Source of the DNA: Tardiphaga robiniae
GTDB lineage: Bacteria; Pseudomonadota; Alphaproteobacteria; Rhizobiales; Xanthobacteraceae
Assembly: GCF_013359755.1 (NCBI RefSeq)
Contig: NZ_JABMCJ010000085.1
Location: 248,001 to 312,000, forward strand
DNA: 64,000 nucleotides
Reading direction: 5' to 3'
Below are positions 10,451-43,196 of this stretch, one piece after another (positions within the stretch are counted from its first letter, which is position 1; every line of letters starts with the position of its first letter). The translations under genes and the position numbers were made by a program. The notes under the pieces were generated by a model. That model made no database searches. It saw nothing but the letters and a program-made list of their open reading frames with translations, and was not told the DNA's origin.

Positions 10451-10633
10451 CTAGTGCAGGACGTTATTGCCGGGCCGGATAGCACCGAACTGGGGTGAAG
10501 CGGCATAGAGTTGCTGCAATTCCGCTTCCAGTTGTTCGTTGACCATCAGCAAAGCCTTGAGCGCGCCGCGCAAGTCGCCATTGCAGGTAGAAATGATTTC
10601 GTCGATCACAGCATCGGTTGGGCGGGCCGTCAT
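10451..10633 (-). CDS. Small hypothetical protein, 60 aa
   Basis: Sixty residues, starting MTARPTDAVIDEII and ending RPGNNVLH. It has one long predicted amphipathic helix (about 18-43: LRGALKALLMVNEQLEAELQQLYA) and no signal peptide. The ATG at 10633 is preceded by GGAG at good spacing, which together with a plausible protein-like composition makes it a real gene. I do not recognise a named domain. It lies between the MscS gene and a DUF3750 gene, transcribed opposite to both. Confidence 0.65.
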   Translation of the reverse strand: MTARPTDAVIDEIISTCNGDLRGALKALLMVNEQLEAELQQLYAASPQFGAIRPGNNVLH

Positions 10634-37303: not shown

Positions 37304-37720
37304 ATGCAAAAGAAAACCCGAACGCCTGCTGCAAAGTCAGTCAAACGTTCCATGAAGCCGGCAGTTCGGGGTTCCAAGGCGTTGGTGTCGCTGCCGAAAA
37401 GCCGCGCGTCGGCGGCAGCGCTCACGATGCGGCGGCTGGAAGCGCAACTCACACAGGCGGAGGCGAAGATTGCCGAATTGCGAGCTTCGGCGGAAACCGA
37501 CTTCCTGCTCGACATTCTCAACCGCCGTGGCTTTGTCCGCGAGCTGACCCGCGCCGTGGCGATCGACCAGCTCACTTTCGTCTTCCGCGACATCAACGTG
37601 TCGGCTGGCGCCTCTGCAGGCGTCGCACTGCTGGGTCCCGATGTCGATGGCGAAGCCGCGTTGGTTCAGGCCGACAGGGCGATGTATGTGCGCAAGACCG
37701 CGCGACGCGCGAAAGTGTAG
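37304..37720 (+). pseudogene. GGDEF protein with internal deletion of the catalytic core
   Basis: A 138-residue product. It has a basic N-terminal region (1-55), a short helical segment with AETDFLLDILNRRGFVRELTRAVA (about 62-85), which is the start of a GGDEF domain, followed directly by IDQLTFVF...VSAGASAGVALLGPDVDGEAALVQADRAMYVRKTARR, its end. The GG(D/E)EF loop and metal-binding Asp residues are missing: about 80 residues remain of a domain usually near 160. The frame is intact, so it may be an expressed remnant that cannot make cyclic di-GMP. It lies upstream of the SOS-boxed gene and convergent with it. Confidence 0.7.
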
Positions 37721-37746: not shown

Positions 37747-37998
37747 TTACAGCGCGCTGAGGTCGTTTGGCACTTCGCCAAAGGCGCGGATCACCTGGGC
37801 GTCGCCGAACTCGCCGATCATCGGATCGCCGGTACGGCTGAAGGCCAGTGCGCCGATCGAACCTGGCGCACGGGACAATAGTTCGGCGCGGCGGATGGCG
37901 CCGGATGCGCTCTGACATTCCTCGGCGGCACCGGCGGCCGGCGAACCAGAGTCGTCGTGTAGGAAGGGCAGTGCGACATAATAGGTGATATCGGCCAT
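37747..37998 (-). CDS. Small hypothetical protein with an SOS-type promoter
   Basis: An 83-residue protein starting MADITYYVALPFLHDD. A Gly/Ala-rich and Ser-rich centre (GSPAAGAAEECQSASGA) is followed by a short conserved-looking C-terminal half. It has no transmembrane segment and no domain I can name. GAGGG lies at good distance from the ATG at 37998. Upstream (38036-38060) the promoter has a perfect -35 TTGACA with a GTTC-N7-GTTC LexA box in the spacer, so expression should rise after DNA damage. Function is unknown. Confidence 0.75.
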   Translation of the reverse strand: MADITYYVALPFLHDDSGSPAAGAAEECQSASGAIRRAELLSRAPGSIGALAFSRTGDPMIGEFGDAQVIRAFGEVPNDLSAL

Positions 37999-38035
37999 GG
38001 TGCCCTCACGAGTCGATTGATCTCGGCACAAGAAT

Positions 38036-38060
38036 GTTCTTATTTTGTTCTTATTGTCAA
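38036..38060 (-). promoter_or_regulatory. LexA/SOS box within a sigma-70 promoter
   Basis: GTTC-TTATTTT-GTTC at 38036-38050 matches the alphaproteobacterial LexA site GTTC-N7-GTTC. On the minus strand the -35 element TTGACA lies at 38060-38055, and the box falls in the 17-base spacer region before an ACATTC -10-like element. The box is 38-52 bases upstream of the ATG of the 83-residue gene. Confidence 0.75.
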
Positions 38061-38422: not shown

Positions 38423-38629
38423 TCAGGCAATAATATCCGGGGTGATCTGATCTTCGATGAAGGAGATCCGGTCTTTCAGCTGAAGCTTCCTCTTCTTCAA
38501 CCGCTGCAGTCGCAAAAGATCGGGTGCCGGTGAATGTTGCAAGGCATCGATAGCGGCGTCGAGGTCGCGATGTTCCTGCTGCAATCGGGCGAGTTCTAAC
38601 GGGAGTTCGCGATCTTCGTCGTCGTTCAT
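38423..38629 (-). CDS. DUF465 (YdcH-like) small protein
   Basis: A 68-residue helical protein of the YdcH/DUF465 family. The pattern of a heptad-like acidic N-terminal helix followed by LRLQRLKKRKLQLKDRISFIEDQI is typical. Family function is unknown. The ATG at 38629 is used because residues before it are absent from relatives. A second, divergent DUF465 gene follows within 250 bases. Confidence 0.85.
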   Translation of the reverse strand: MNDDEDRELPLELARLQQEHRDLDAAIDALQHSPAPDLLRLQRLKKRKLQLKDRISFIEDQITPDIIA

Positions 38630-38878: not shown

Positions 38879-39064
38879 ATGGCACTACAGGCGCATCTCG
38901 TCGAACTGGAACGCAAGCACAAAGTTCTCGAAAGCGAATTGCACGAAGCGCTCGTGCACCTGTCTACCGACGATCTCCGCATCGTCGAACTCAAGCGTCG
39001 AAAACTGATGGTCAGGGACGAAATCCAGCGTCTCAAAAATGGGGCCAGCGAAACGGTGCACTGA
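38879..39064 (+). CDS. DUF465 (YdcH-like) small protein, second copy
   Basis: A 61-residue DUF465 protein (MALQAHLVELERKHKVLESELHEALVHLSTDDLRIVELKRRKLMVRDEIQRLK). It is a short helical hairpin with strongly alternating charge, likely a dimeric coiled coil. ACCGAGGAG stands eight bases before the ATG. It differs from the 38423 copy in sequence, so the two are paralogues and not a recent duplication. Its exact role is unknown. Confidence 0.85.
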   Translation: MALQAHLVELERKHKVLESELHEALVHLSTDDLRIVELKRRKLMVRDEIQRLKNGASETVH

Positions 39065-40526: not shown

Positions 40527-43196
40527 ATGACTGGCAAGATCGGGCGATCAGACAGCAAGGCGGCAGTGTCCGTCATCGCAGTCGCGTGCCTTCTCGGCAG
40601 CATTGCCGGAGCCCACGCAGAATCTCCGGCGGTTCATTATATCAGTGAACTCGACCCGCAAATGATCTGGCAGATCCTCATCGGTGGATTTGTCGCGCTG
40701 GCATTTCTCGCCGCCATTGTGCTGTGGGTCGCCTCGGCACTGCGCAATGTGCGTCGCGAGCAGCATCGTCGCAATGCGTTTGTCGGTTCTGCCCTCAATC
40801 ATCTCGGCCAAGGCATCGTGATGCTCGACGACCAGAAGCGGGTCGTGTTTTGCAACGATCGCTATCTTGAGATCTACGACCTGACGCGCGCCGACATCAC
40901 CAAGGATATTACCGGTCCAGAATTGCGTGAGTTACGCCGCCAGCGTGGCAAGCTCGATCTGGCCACCCAGAGCTTCTACGAGCAGACTGTTTCCGCCGGC
41001 GAGTACATTGCCGAAATGCCCGGCGGGCAATCCGTTCACGTCAAGTTCAGCCGGCTTCCCAATGGCGGCGCCATTGGCATTCATGAGGACTGCACCGAGC
41101 AGCGTTTCCTGCAGCGCGAGCTTGCGACCACCAAGCAATTCCTCGAATCTGTCCTTGATCACGTCCCGATCTGCGTCGCGGCCAAGACCATTGACGATGG
41201 CCGCTATATCTTCGCCAACCGGGCTTTCGAGACCTTCTCTCGGCTCTCGCGCGATAAGATCGTTGGCAAGCGACCGGATCAGATATTCTCCGCACAGTCT
41301 GCGAAAGCGATTGCCGAAGCCGATGCCCTAGCAGTGGAAACGCGCAGTCAGTGTCGCAGCGAGTTCAATGTGGAGATTGGTTCAGACCTCCGCACGCTGG
41401 ATAGCAATCGCGTGATTGCCTTTAACGAACGCAATGAGCCGGCATTTCTGATTGCGCTGTTCGAGGATGTGACCGACCGCAAGTCGCTGTCCAAGGAACT
41501 GGAGAACGCCAAGAAATTCCTTGAGACCGTGCTCGACAACATTCCTGTGTCGCTGATGGTGCAACAGATCAGCACCGGTCGTTATCTGTTCGCCAACCGC
41601 GGCGCAGAGGTCATTTTGGGTCGCAAGCGCGAAGACGCTATCGGTCTGACCGTTCCCGAAATGCTTCGCCCGGAAGAAGCGAAGCTGATCGTCAGCCGGG
41701 ATCAGGCCGCGATCAGGGGCCGAACACCGATTGCGGAAGAGCATCCGATCAGCACGCGCGACGGATTGCGGCTGTTCCTGACCCGGCGGGTCACCGTGCT
41801 CGACGAAGCAGGCGAGCCGCAATATCTGATCAAGACCCACGAAGATGTCACCGACCGTCGCCAGACCGAGGCGCGGATGGCGCATATGGCCTATCACGAC
41901 GGCCTGACCGATCTGCCGAACCGCCCGGCCTTCTTGCAGGCTCTGTCGCAGATGATCGATGCCTGCGGCGAGACCTCTGAGGAATTCGCGGTGCTGTCGA
42001 TCGATCTCGACGGCCTGAAGGAGGTCAACGATGTCTTCGGTCACGCCATCGGTGACAAGCTGCTGATCGAAGTGTCGCGTCGTGTCGATGCAGCCGTGGG
42101 CGGCGGAGTTGTGGCGCGGCTCGGCGGTGACGAGTTCGGCGTGATCATCGACGGCGCGCAGCCCGCGGCTGGGCTGTTGATCGCAGAGCGGATCTCCGCG
42201 GCCCTTGCGGAGGAATTCCCGATCGAGGGCAAATCGGTGCGGACGGGCGTCACCACGGGCATCTCGCTGTTCCCGCGCGACGGCCATGACCCGGCCGCGT
42301 TGCTGGCGAATTCCGGCGCGGCGCTGTTCCGTGCCAAGTCGCAGTCGCGCGGTTCGATCAGCATCTTCGAGCCGCAAATGGACCAGCAACTGCGCGATCG
42401 CCGCGTGCTGCATCAGGACCTCTCGGCCGCGATCCGCAATGGCGAATTGTCGCTGCACTACCAACCCCAGGCTCGCGCTGGCCAGACCGTCGTCGATGCC
42501 GACATTACGGGCTTCGAGGCACTGGCGCGGTGGATTCATCCGACGCGCGGTTTCGTGCCGCCCGGAGACTTCATTCCGCTGGCCGAAGAAAGTGGCCTGA
42601 TCGTCGAGATGGGCGAGTGGATCCTGCGCCAGGCCTGCCTTGAGGCTGCCTCGTGGCCGGTCCCGCTGCAGATCGCGGTCAATCTGTCGCCCGCGCAGTT
42701 CATGCATGGTGATCTTGTCGGCCTCGTGCATTCGATCCTGCTCGAAACCGGCCTGCAGCCCGGTCGCCTTGAGCTGGAAATCACCGAGGGTGTGCTGATC
42801 GAGGATTTCGATCGCGGCGTCGCATTGCTGCGGCGGTTGAAGGCGCTCGGCGTGCGCATCTCGATGGACGACTTCGGCTCCGGCTATTCGTCGCTGACCT
42901 ATCTGCAGGCATTCCCGTTCGACAAGATCAAGATCGACCGCGCTTTCGTGATCAATCTGGGGCTCAATCCGCAGTCCGCTGCCATCGTGCGCGCGGTCAT
43001 CGGGCTGGGCCATGGCCTCGACGTCGCGATCGTTGCGGAAGGCGTCGAGACCCACGAGCAACTCTGCTTCCTCGCCAGCGAAGGCTGCGACGGCGTACAA
43101 GGCTACTTCATCGGGCGTCCTGCCCCGATTGCGCAATATGCTGCGCTGGTCGGACGGATTGCCGCCGCTGCGCCCGCCGCGCGCATGGTCGGTTGA
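40527..43196 (+). CDS. PAS-GGDEF-EAL cyclic di-GMP protein
   Basis: An 889-residue membrane-anchored signalling protein. It has a signal or anchor (about 13-31), a second transmembrane helix (about 50-70), three PAS-type sensory domains (about 80-195, 200-320, 325-450), a GGDEF domain with LGGDEFGV near 532-539, and an EAL domain (about 630-880). The EAL box is FEALARW near 662, with EITEG, DDFGSGYSS and KIDRAFV. Both motifs look intact, so it could synthesise and degrade c-di-GMP depending on input. The PAS domains probably sense a soluble ligand or redox state. A separate transcript from the ABC importer genes downstream. Confidence 0.93.
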   Translation: MTGKIGRSDSKAAVSVIAVACLLGSIAGAHAESPAVHYISELDPQMIWQILIGGFVALAFLAAIVLWVASALRNVRREQHRRNAFVGSALNHLGQGIVMLDDQKRVVFCNDRYLEIYDLTRADITKDITGPELRELRRQRGKLDLATQSFYEQTVSAGEYIAEMPGGQSVHVKFSRLPNGGAIGIHEDCTEQRFLQRELATTKQFLESVLDHVPICVAAKTIDDGRYIFANRAFETFSRLSRDKIVGKRPDQIFSAQSAKAIAEADALAVETRSQCRSEFNVEIGSDLRTLDSNRVIAFNERNEPAFLIALFEDVTDRKSLSKELENAKKFLETVLDNIPVSLMVQQISTGRYLFANRGAEVILGRKREDAIGLTVPEMLRPEEAKLIVSRDQAAIRGRTPIAEEHPISTRDGLRLFLTRRVTVLDEAGEPQYLIKTHEDVTDRRQTEARMAHMAYHDGLTDLPNRPAFLQALSQMIDACGETSEEFAVLSIDLDGLKEVNDVFGHAIGDKLLIEVSRRVDAAVGGGVVARLGGDEFGVIIDGAQPAAGLLIAERISAALAEEFPIEGKSVRTGVTTGISLFPRDGHDPAALLANSGAALFRAKSQSRGSISIFEPQMDQQLRDRRVLHQDLSAAIRNGELSLHYQPQARAGQTVVDADITGFEALARWIHPTRGFVPPGDFIPLAEESGLIVEMGEWILRQACLEAASWPVPLQIAVNLSPAQFMHGDLVGLVHSILLETGLQPGRLELEITEGVLIEDFDRGVALLRRLKALGVRISMDDFGSGYSSLTYLQAFPFDKIKIDRAFVINLGLNPQSAAIVRAVIGLGHGLDVAIVAEGVETHEQLCFLASEGCDGVQGYFIGRPAPIAQYAALVGRIAAAAPAARMVG

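Follow-up and report, generated by a model that had tools for sequence, protein, structure and literature searches.

Gene organization at the locus

The window, meaning the whole 64,000-nucleotide stretch of Tardiphaga robiniae DNA that was analysed, contains a short gene of 83 residues preceded by a LexA-type box. The genes and promoter elements at this locus are the following:

37304-37720, plus strand: decayed GGDEF gene with its core deleted; the T. robiniae copy at locus L052 is apparently full length
37747..37998, minus strand: 83-residue open reading frame, stop codon included, with its ATG at 37998
38003..38007, minus strand: Shine-Dalgarno-like GAGGG, read from the sequence
38031..38036, minus strand: likely -10 element CATTCT, with an 18-nt spacer and an overlap of one base with the end of the box
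38036..38050, minus strand: LexA-type operator GAACAAAATAAGAAC, which is GTTC-N7-GTTC on the plus strand, between the -35 element and the start codon
38055..38060, minus strand: -35 element TTGACA, read from the sequence
38423-38629, minus strand: DUF465 gene, upstream of the 83-residue gene
38879-39064, plus strand: DUF465 gene, upstream of the 83-residue gene

This copy of the gene lies between purE and the DUF465 genes in an ordinary part of the chromosome, outside any prophage and with neither a repressor nor recA nearby. The convergent, decayed GGDEF gene described beside it in the first-pass annotation, which had been made from the letters alone, is real: about 240 nt are missing with the GGDEF core when it is compared with T. 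robiniae (L052). In L011, L012 and L013 the GGDEF gene has been independently broken in other ways, and the 83-residue gene is intact while this adjoining gene decays.

The same annotation had reported an exact TTGACA -35 element and a GTTC-N7-GTTC motif at 38036-38050 upstream of the gene, and both were found as described. Its further description of a strong promoter holds for the perfect -35 element but not for the -10 region, where no element passes a sigma-70 consensus scan of the upstream sequence and no promoter was found by that scan. Because CATTCT was missed by the scan, it is counted as an inferred -10 element; several relatives carry a CATWAT-like sequence at the same position. On the plus strand, positions 38034-38050 (ATGTTC-TTATTT-TGTTC) exactly match the experimentally defined LexA consensus of Caulobacter, (T/A)TGTTC(N6)TGTTC (quoted in PMC13384398).

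The frequency of the box was also determined. GTTC-N7-GTTC occurs 2 times in the window against 1.85 expected, which is chance level, and across the genome (6.3 Mb) it is found 149 times and its reversed pattern 143 times, so the evidence for the box is its conservation. The tighter form GTTC-N5-TTGTTC is enriched in the genome (14 vs 4). The other GTTC-N7-GTTC of the window, at 41034-41048 on the plus strand, lies inside an 889-residue GGDEF/EAL-type gene (40527-43196) and is probably a chance match.

Properties of the 83-residue protein

The gene is real, as judged from its open reading frame, its orthologues in the genus and purifying selection. The genus orthologues are 80-99% identical in protein sequence, that of T. 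robiniae Vaf-07 being 99% identical, and comparison with them gave dN/dS values of 0.035-0.15. The protein is acidic (8.5 kDa, pI 4.3), a property of the family as a whole (median pI 4.3, 112 members). It has no membrane segment, with a top 19-residue mean hydropathy of 0.49, and is soluble.

The AlphaFold2 model of the protein (pLDDT 88) has a b-b-b-a-b-b arrangement. A sequence search of the PDB returned no solved relative below E 0.7, and Foldseek against the PDB returned none below E 0.09. Matches in BFVD were small uncharacterized phage proteins with E values of 0.006 or worse. The top match in VIA-align was the phage antitoxin Dmd of T4/RB69 (5hy3, 5i8j), with an rmsd of 2.5 over 56/57 residues for 5hy3. 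This match is weak (Z 4.4-4.5, 7-9% identity), and its best score, Z 4.5, is level with those of photosystem I PsaD and other unrelated proteins. We therefore treat the fold as unassigned.

The earlier assignment to no known family stands, as Pfam, NCBIfam, PHROGs and PADLOC contain no model for the family. DUF6894 and DUF6368 were considered and dropped, their matches being weak (E 0.015-0.044) and confined to few members. No description of the family was found in the open papers searched, other literature lying outside the search, and the family appears to be undescribed in these libraries and papers.

Conservation of the LexA-type box across the family

Homologues were drawn from genomes at the level of the family (297), the order (397) and the class (385), together with plasmids and viral contigs. 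Within the genus, all 11 copies that are at least 80% identical, including that of the window, keep the box between the -35 element and the start codon (box start 45-53 nt ahead of the start codon), while the flanking sequence drifts. No box was found at L020, a genus copy of 63% identity.

For the wider family, a non-redundant set of 85 members was assembled by pooling the family-level set with the plasmid and viral ones and removing sequences more than 90% identical. The box, as GTTC-N7-GTTC or its reverse complement, lies within 450 nt upstream in 73 of the 85 members and within 90 nt in 40. Five control patterns (other words, a spacer of 6 or 8, inverted half-sites) gave 0-2 matches in the same members. 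The box is kept, in either orientation, in many members that are less than 50% identical and come from other families. Among the members with a start-proximal box, the half-sites score 2.00 bits per position, a value fixed by construction of the search, and the informative part of the profile is the drift of the flanks at about 0.15-0.2 bits. The position of the box within the promoter is nearly fixed among relatives. In the GAAC orientation, TTGAC is kept in nearly all relatives and the box follows it in the spacer, ahead of a CATWWT-like -10 element; LexA would therefore cover the promoter.

Further family- and order-level loci (L158-L171) carry the box in 10 of 14 cases. In a distant sister group of the YIVQ..GDYDD type, from other families and orders (L165, L172-L175, L030, L031), the box was not found, and SOS control therefore belongs to one branch.

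The first-pass annotation had named a lack of conservation of the box in orthologous promoters as grounds for rejecting its proposal. The comparison was made and gave the opposite result: the box is conserved in these promoters while the flanks drift, and for this reason SOS control of the gene is well supported by sequence. Repression by LexA and induction by DNA damage are thus very probable. The literature searched contained no LexA-binding or damage-induction data for the family, and the box and its conservation fall short of proving LexA binding.

The same box at other genes of the genome

The LexA regulon of this genome was sampled by pattern matches. Family models located lexA and recA, which are preceded by GAACACATATGGAAC and GAACATATTGCGAAC, respectively. 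Among the 14 GTTC-N5-TTGTTC sites are ones upstream of genes that we take, from their translations, to be ssb and SplB-like radical SAM, ComM-like and SocA-like genes. The boxed genes at L040, L043, L045, L046, L049 and L050, also identified by reading translations, presumably comprise radical SAM (SplB-like), SocA-like, AAA/OLD-like, ComM-like, small DUF3072-like and RNase T2-like genes. As lexA, recA and ssb all carry it, the box of the 83-residue gene appears to be the one that this genome uses for its core SOS genes.

A second boxed family in Bradyrhizobium

In Tardiphaga, Afipia-like and Rhodopseudomonas members, the gene stands alone with the box directly ahead of it and no partner gene in front, and most of the inspected chromosomal members are single genes without conserved neighbours. 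Most Bradyrhizobium copies are the second gene of a short boxed operon, in which a helical partner of about 70 residues comes first. The box of this operon precedes the partner gene and is not directly ahead of the 83-residue-family gene. A reading in which the Bradyrhizobium copies escape SOS control was therefore wrong, the box lying further upstream.

The partner family has the consensus ..CGGD.R.TIKALL.ANE.LE.EL.. (for example, L103:2269-2487 and other Bradyrhizobium loci), and neither Pfam nor NCBIfam contains a model for it. Its structure model shows two to three helices (pLDDT 76). Among L214-L220, partner homologues occur under their own box without an adjoining 83-residue-family gene. 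The partner family is thus LexA-boxed both alone and as the first gene of an operon (L213-L220, L103 and other Bradyrhizobium loci). A homologue without a LexA-type box is also present in the window:

10451-10633, minus strand: 60-residue homologue of the partner

In several Tardiphaga genomes, some 25-30 kb separate this 60-residue homologue from the 83-residue gene.

Copies on plasmids and viral contigs

Plasmids of Bradyrhizobium and Methylocystis encode homologues of the 83-residue protein, as do 27 contigs from IMG/VR. At the viral-contig loci, the box lies within 600 nt in 24/27 and within 80 nt in 20/27. The annotated phage genome collection gave no match to the family, so some of the IMG/VR contigs may hold host flank.

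Ten viral-contig loci (L188, L191, L196, L198, L199, L203, L206, L207, L208 and L211) have a convergent CI-type repressor gene 0-2 kb downstream of the family member. The Pfam S24 domain was detected in 10/10 of these repressors, one of them just under the cut-off, and direct cleavage of these repressors is therefore possible. The neighbourhood of cI in prophages may be a mere habitual site of SOS-controlled cargo genes. By eye, several of the ten repressors seem to have the expected Ala-Gly cleavage pair replaced, with another residue before Gly-Gly.

Repair-related neighbours were observed at other loci. At L139, L140, L186 and L189, a SRAP (YedK/HMCES-like) gene, identified by its MCGRF or MCNLY start, is found no more than about 1.5 kb ahead of the family member. 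The B. barranii plasmid pCC829_1 (L061) carries a family member and a Ku gene in divergent orientation, separated by a region that contains GAAC-N7-GAAC. Both SRAP and Ku have been described in SOS-linked neighbourhoods (PMC3765255).

Comparison with known small SOS proteins

The DinI fold has a C-terminal acidic helix, which is absent from the AlphaFold2 model of the 83-residue protein. Membership in the DinI family is ruled out by sequence, with no match to the Pfam DinI domain among 68 members. In a broader sense the family resembles DinI, Tum and GfoA/GftA, small LexA-controlled proteins of chromosomes and prophages (PMC3121763). Unlike the case of Tum and GfoA/GftA, the repressors neighbouring the family have S24 domains.

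DdrR of Acinetobacter, encoded by alleles of 231-252 bp, is an SOS-induced corepressor that works with UmuDAb (PMC7273328). Set beside it by description, the family is similar in size, in lineage restriction and in having a damage-operator promoter, and its viral-contig members have an S24-type regulator nearby. However, ddrR is always divergent from umuDAb (PMC7273328), whereas no such gene adjoins the 83-residue gene of the window. The gp7 protein of the temperate phage GIL01 is also small and linked to LexA control (PMC4551915); it comes from an unrelated phage and is likened to the family by description.

In Caulobacter, SidA and DidA are division inhibitors of 29 and 71 residues and are membrane proteins (PMC4211646). 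They share with the 83-residue protein their small size and their place among alphaproteobacterial DNA-damage proteins, SidA being SOS-controlled (PMC4211646), but the 83-residue protein has no hydrophobic segment. A division inhibitor of the SidA/DidA type was rejected, the protein lacking a membrane segment.

Proposed role and alternative explanations

We propose that, in the undamaged cell, LexA would occupy the GTTC-N7-GTTC operator between the -35 and -10 elements, keeping the gene from being transcribed. Self-cleavage of LexA, triggered by RecA, would switch the gene on, and the soluble, strongly acidic 8.5-kDa protein would then accumulate. This protein could act in trans as a modulator that binds RecA filaments or LexA/CI (S24) repressors and in this way tunes the SOS response or prophage induction, like DinI, DdrR and GIL01 gp7 elsewhere. 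We put forward the proposal as a whole, a LexA-regulon gene whose product modulates the SOS response through RecA or LexA/CI (S24) repressors, tentatively and at less than even confidence. The part concerning the protein itself, that its binding to RecA or to an S24 repressor might tune the SOS response or the induction of prophages, is equally a possibility that we hold with reserve. The modulator role is suggested by the acidity, small size and soluble fold of the protein, by the sharing of the gene between hosts and prophages and by the proximity of S24 repressors in viral contigs. Against it, the model of the protein matches no solved partner of RecA or LexA, and the window copy has neither a repressor nor recA close by. 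Our best guess is that such a modulator would work like DdrR, gp7 or DinI without belonging to those families. A checkpoint, translesion or nucleoid role had been suggested in the first-pass annotation, and the results gave no specific pointer to any of these.

SOS regulons beyond the gamma-proteobacteria are poorly charted. What is new here is a whole family that is absent from the protein-family libraries searched and has an operator conserved across Hyphomicrobiales, with a second such family beside it. The wider idea is somewhat unlikely as it stands: an undescribed class of LexA-controlled SOS modulators in alphaproteobacterial chromosomes, plasmids and prophages, whose targets would be RecA or S24 repressors and which would couple the damage response with prophage induction, partly together with the second helical family. 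Hosts and prophages seem to use the same gene with the same switch, which opens a direct way to test how damage signals are shared between nodule and soil bacteria and the prophages they carry.

Several other explanations were weighed against the modulator role. If the box were a chance match and the gene outside SOS control, box frequencies at chance level in the window and the genome would be expected, as found; the boxes of 73/85 non-redundant members, compared with 0-2 for the controls, and their nearly fixed position within the promoter make this extremely improbable. The gene could instead encode an accessory of repair or damage tolerance, serving for example SRAP, Ku or a translesion polymerase, which would bind repair proteins or damaged DNA and would be no regulator. 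The SRAP genes at four loci, the divergent Ku gene on the Bradyrhizobium plasmid with the box between, and the SOS-linked neighbourhoods of SRAP and Ku (PMC3765255) point in this direction. However, such associations are few, most inspected chromosomal members being single genes without conserved neighbours, and an acidic protein is untypical of DNA binders, so that we consider this role unlikely.

A prophage-derived antirepressor, repressed by LexA and inactivating CI after damage in the manner of GfoA, GftA, Tum or AntC, would explain the ten viral loci that combine a LexA-type box directly upstream with a convergent gene for a CI-type repressor no more than 2 kb away. Antirepressors that are small and LexA-controlled are already known as a class (PMC3121763), and the chromosomal copies would then be domesticated or orphan forms acting on resident prophages. 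The Gifsy antirepressors, however, serve repressors that are not cleaved (PMC3121763), whereas the S24 domains of all ten neighbouring repressors would permit direct cleavage, and the copy in the window belongs to an ordinary chromosomal region (purE, DUF465) with no prophage; this explanation is accordingly rather improbable. It is still harder to see the protein and the helical partner of Bradyrhizobium as the two halves of a toxin-antitoxin or two-protein system under SOS control. SOS-controlled toxin-antitoxin modules do exist, such as higBA (PMC13384398), most Bradyrhizobium copies follow the partner of about 70 residues and share a single box with it, and Dmd, the top but weak fold match (Z 4.5), is a phage antitoxin. 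This match is nevertheless level with those of unrelated proteins. An obligate toxin-antitoxin half was rejected, as the Tardiphaga, Afipia-like and Rhodopseudomonas members have no obligate two-gene operon. In these members no partner precedes the gene and the box stands directly ahead of it, while partner homologues occur elsewhere under boxes of their own, making an obligate pair unlikely.
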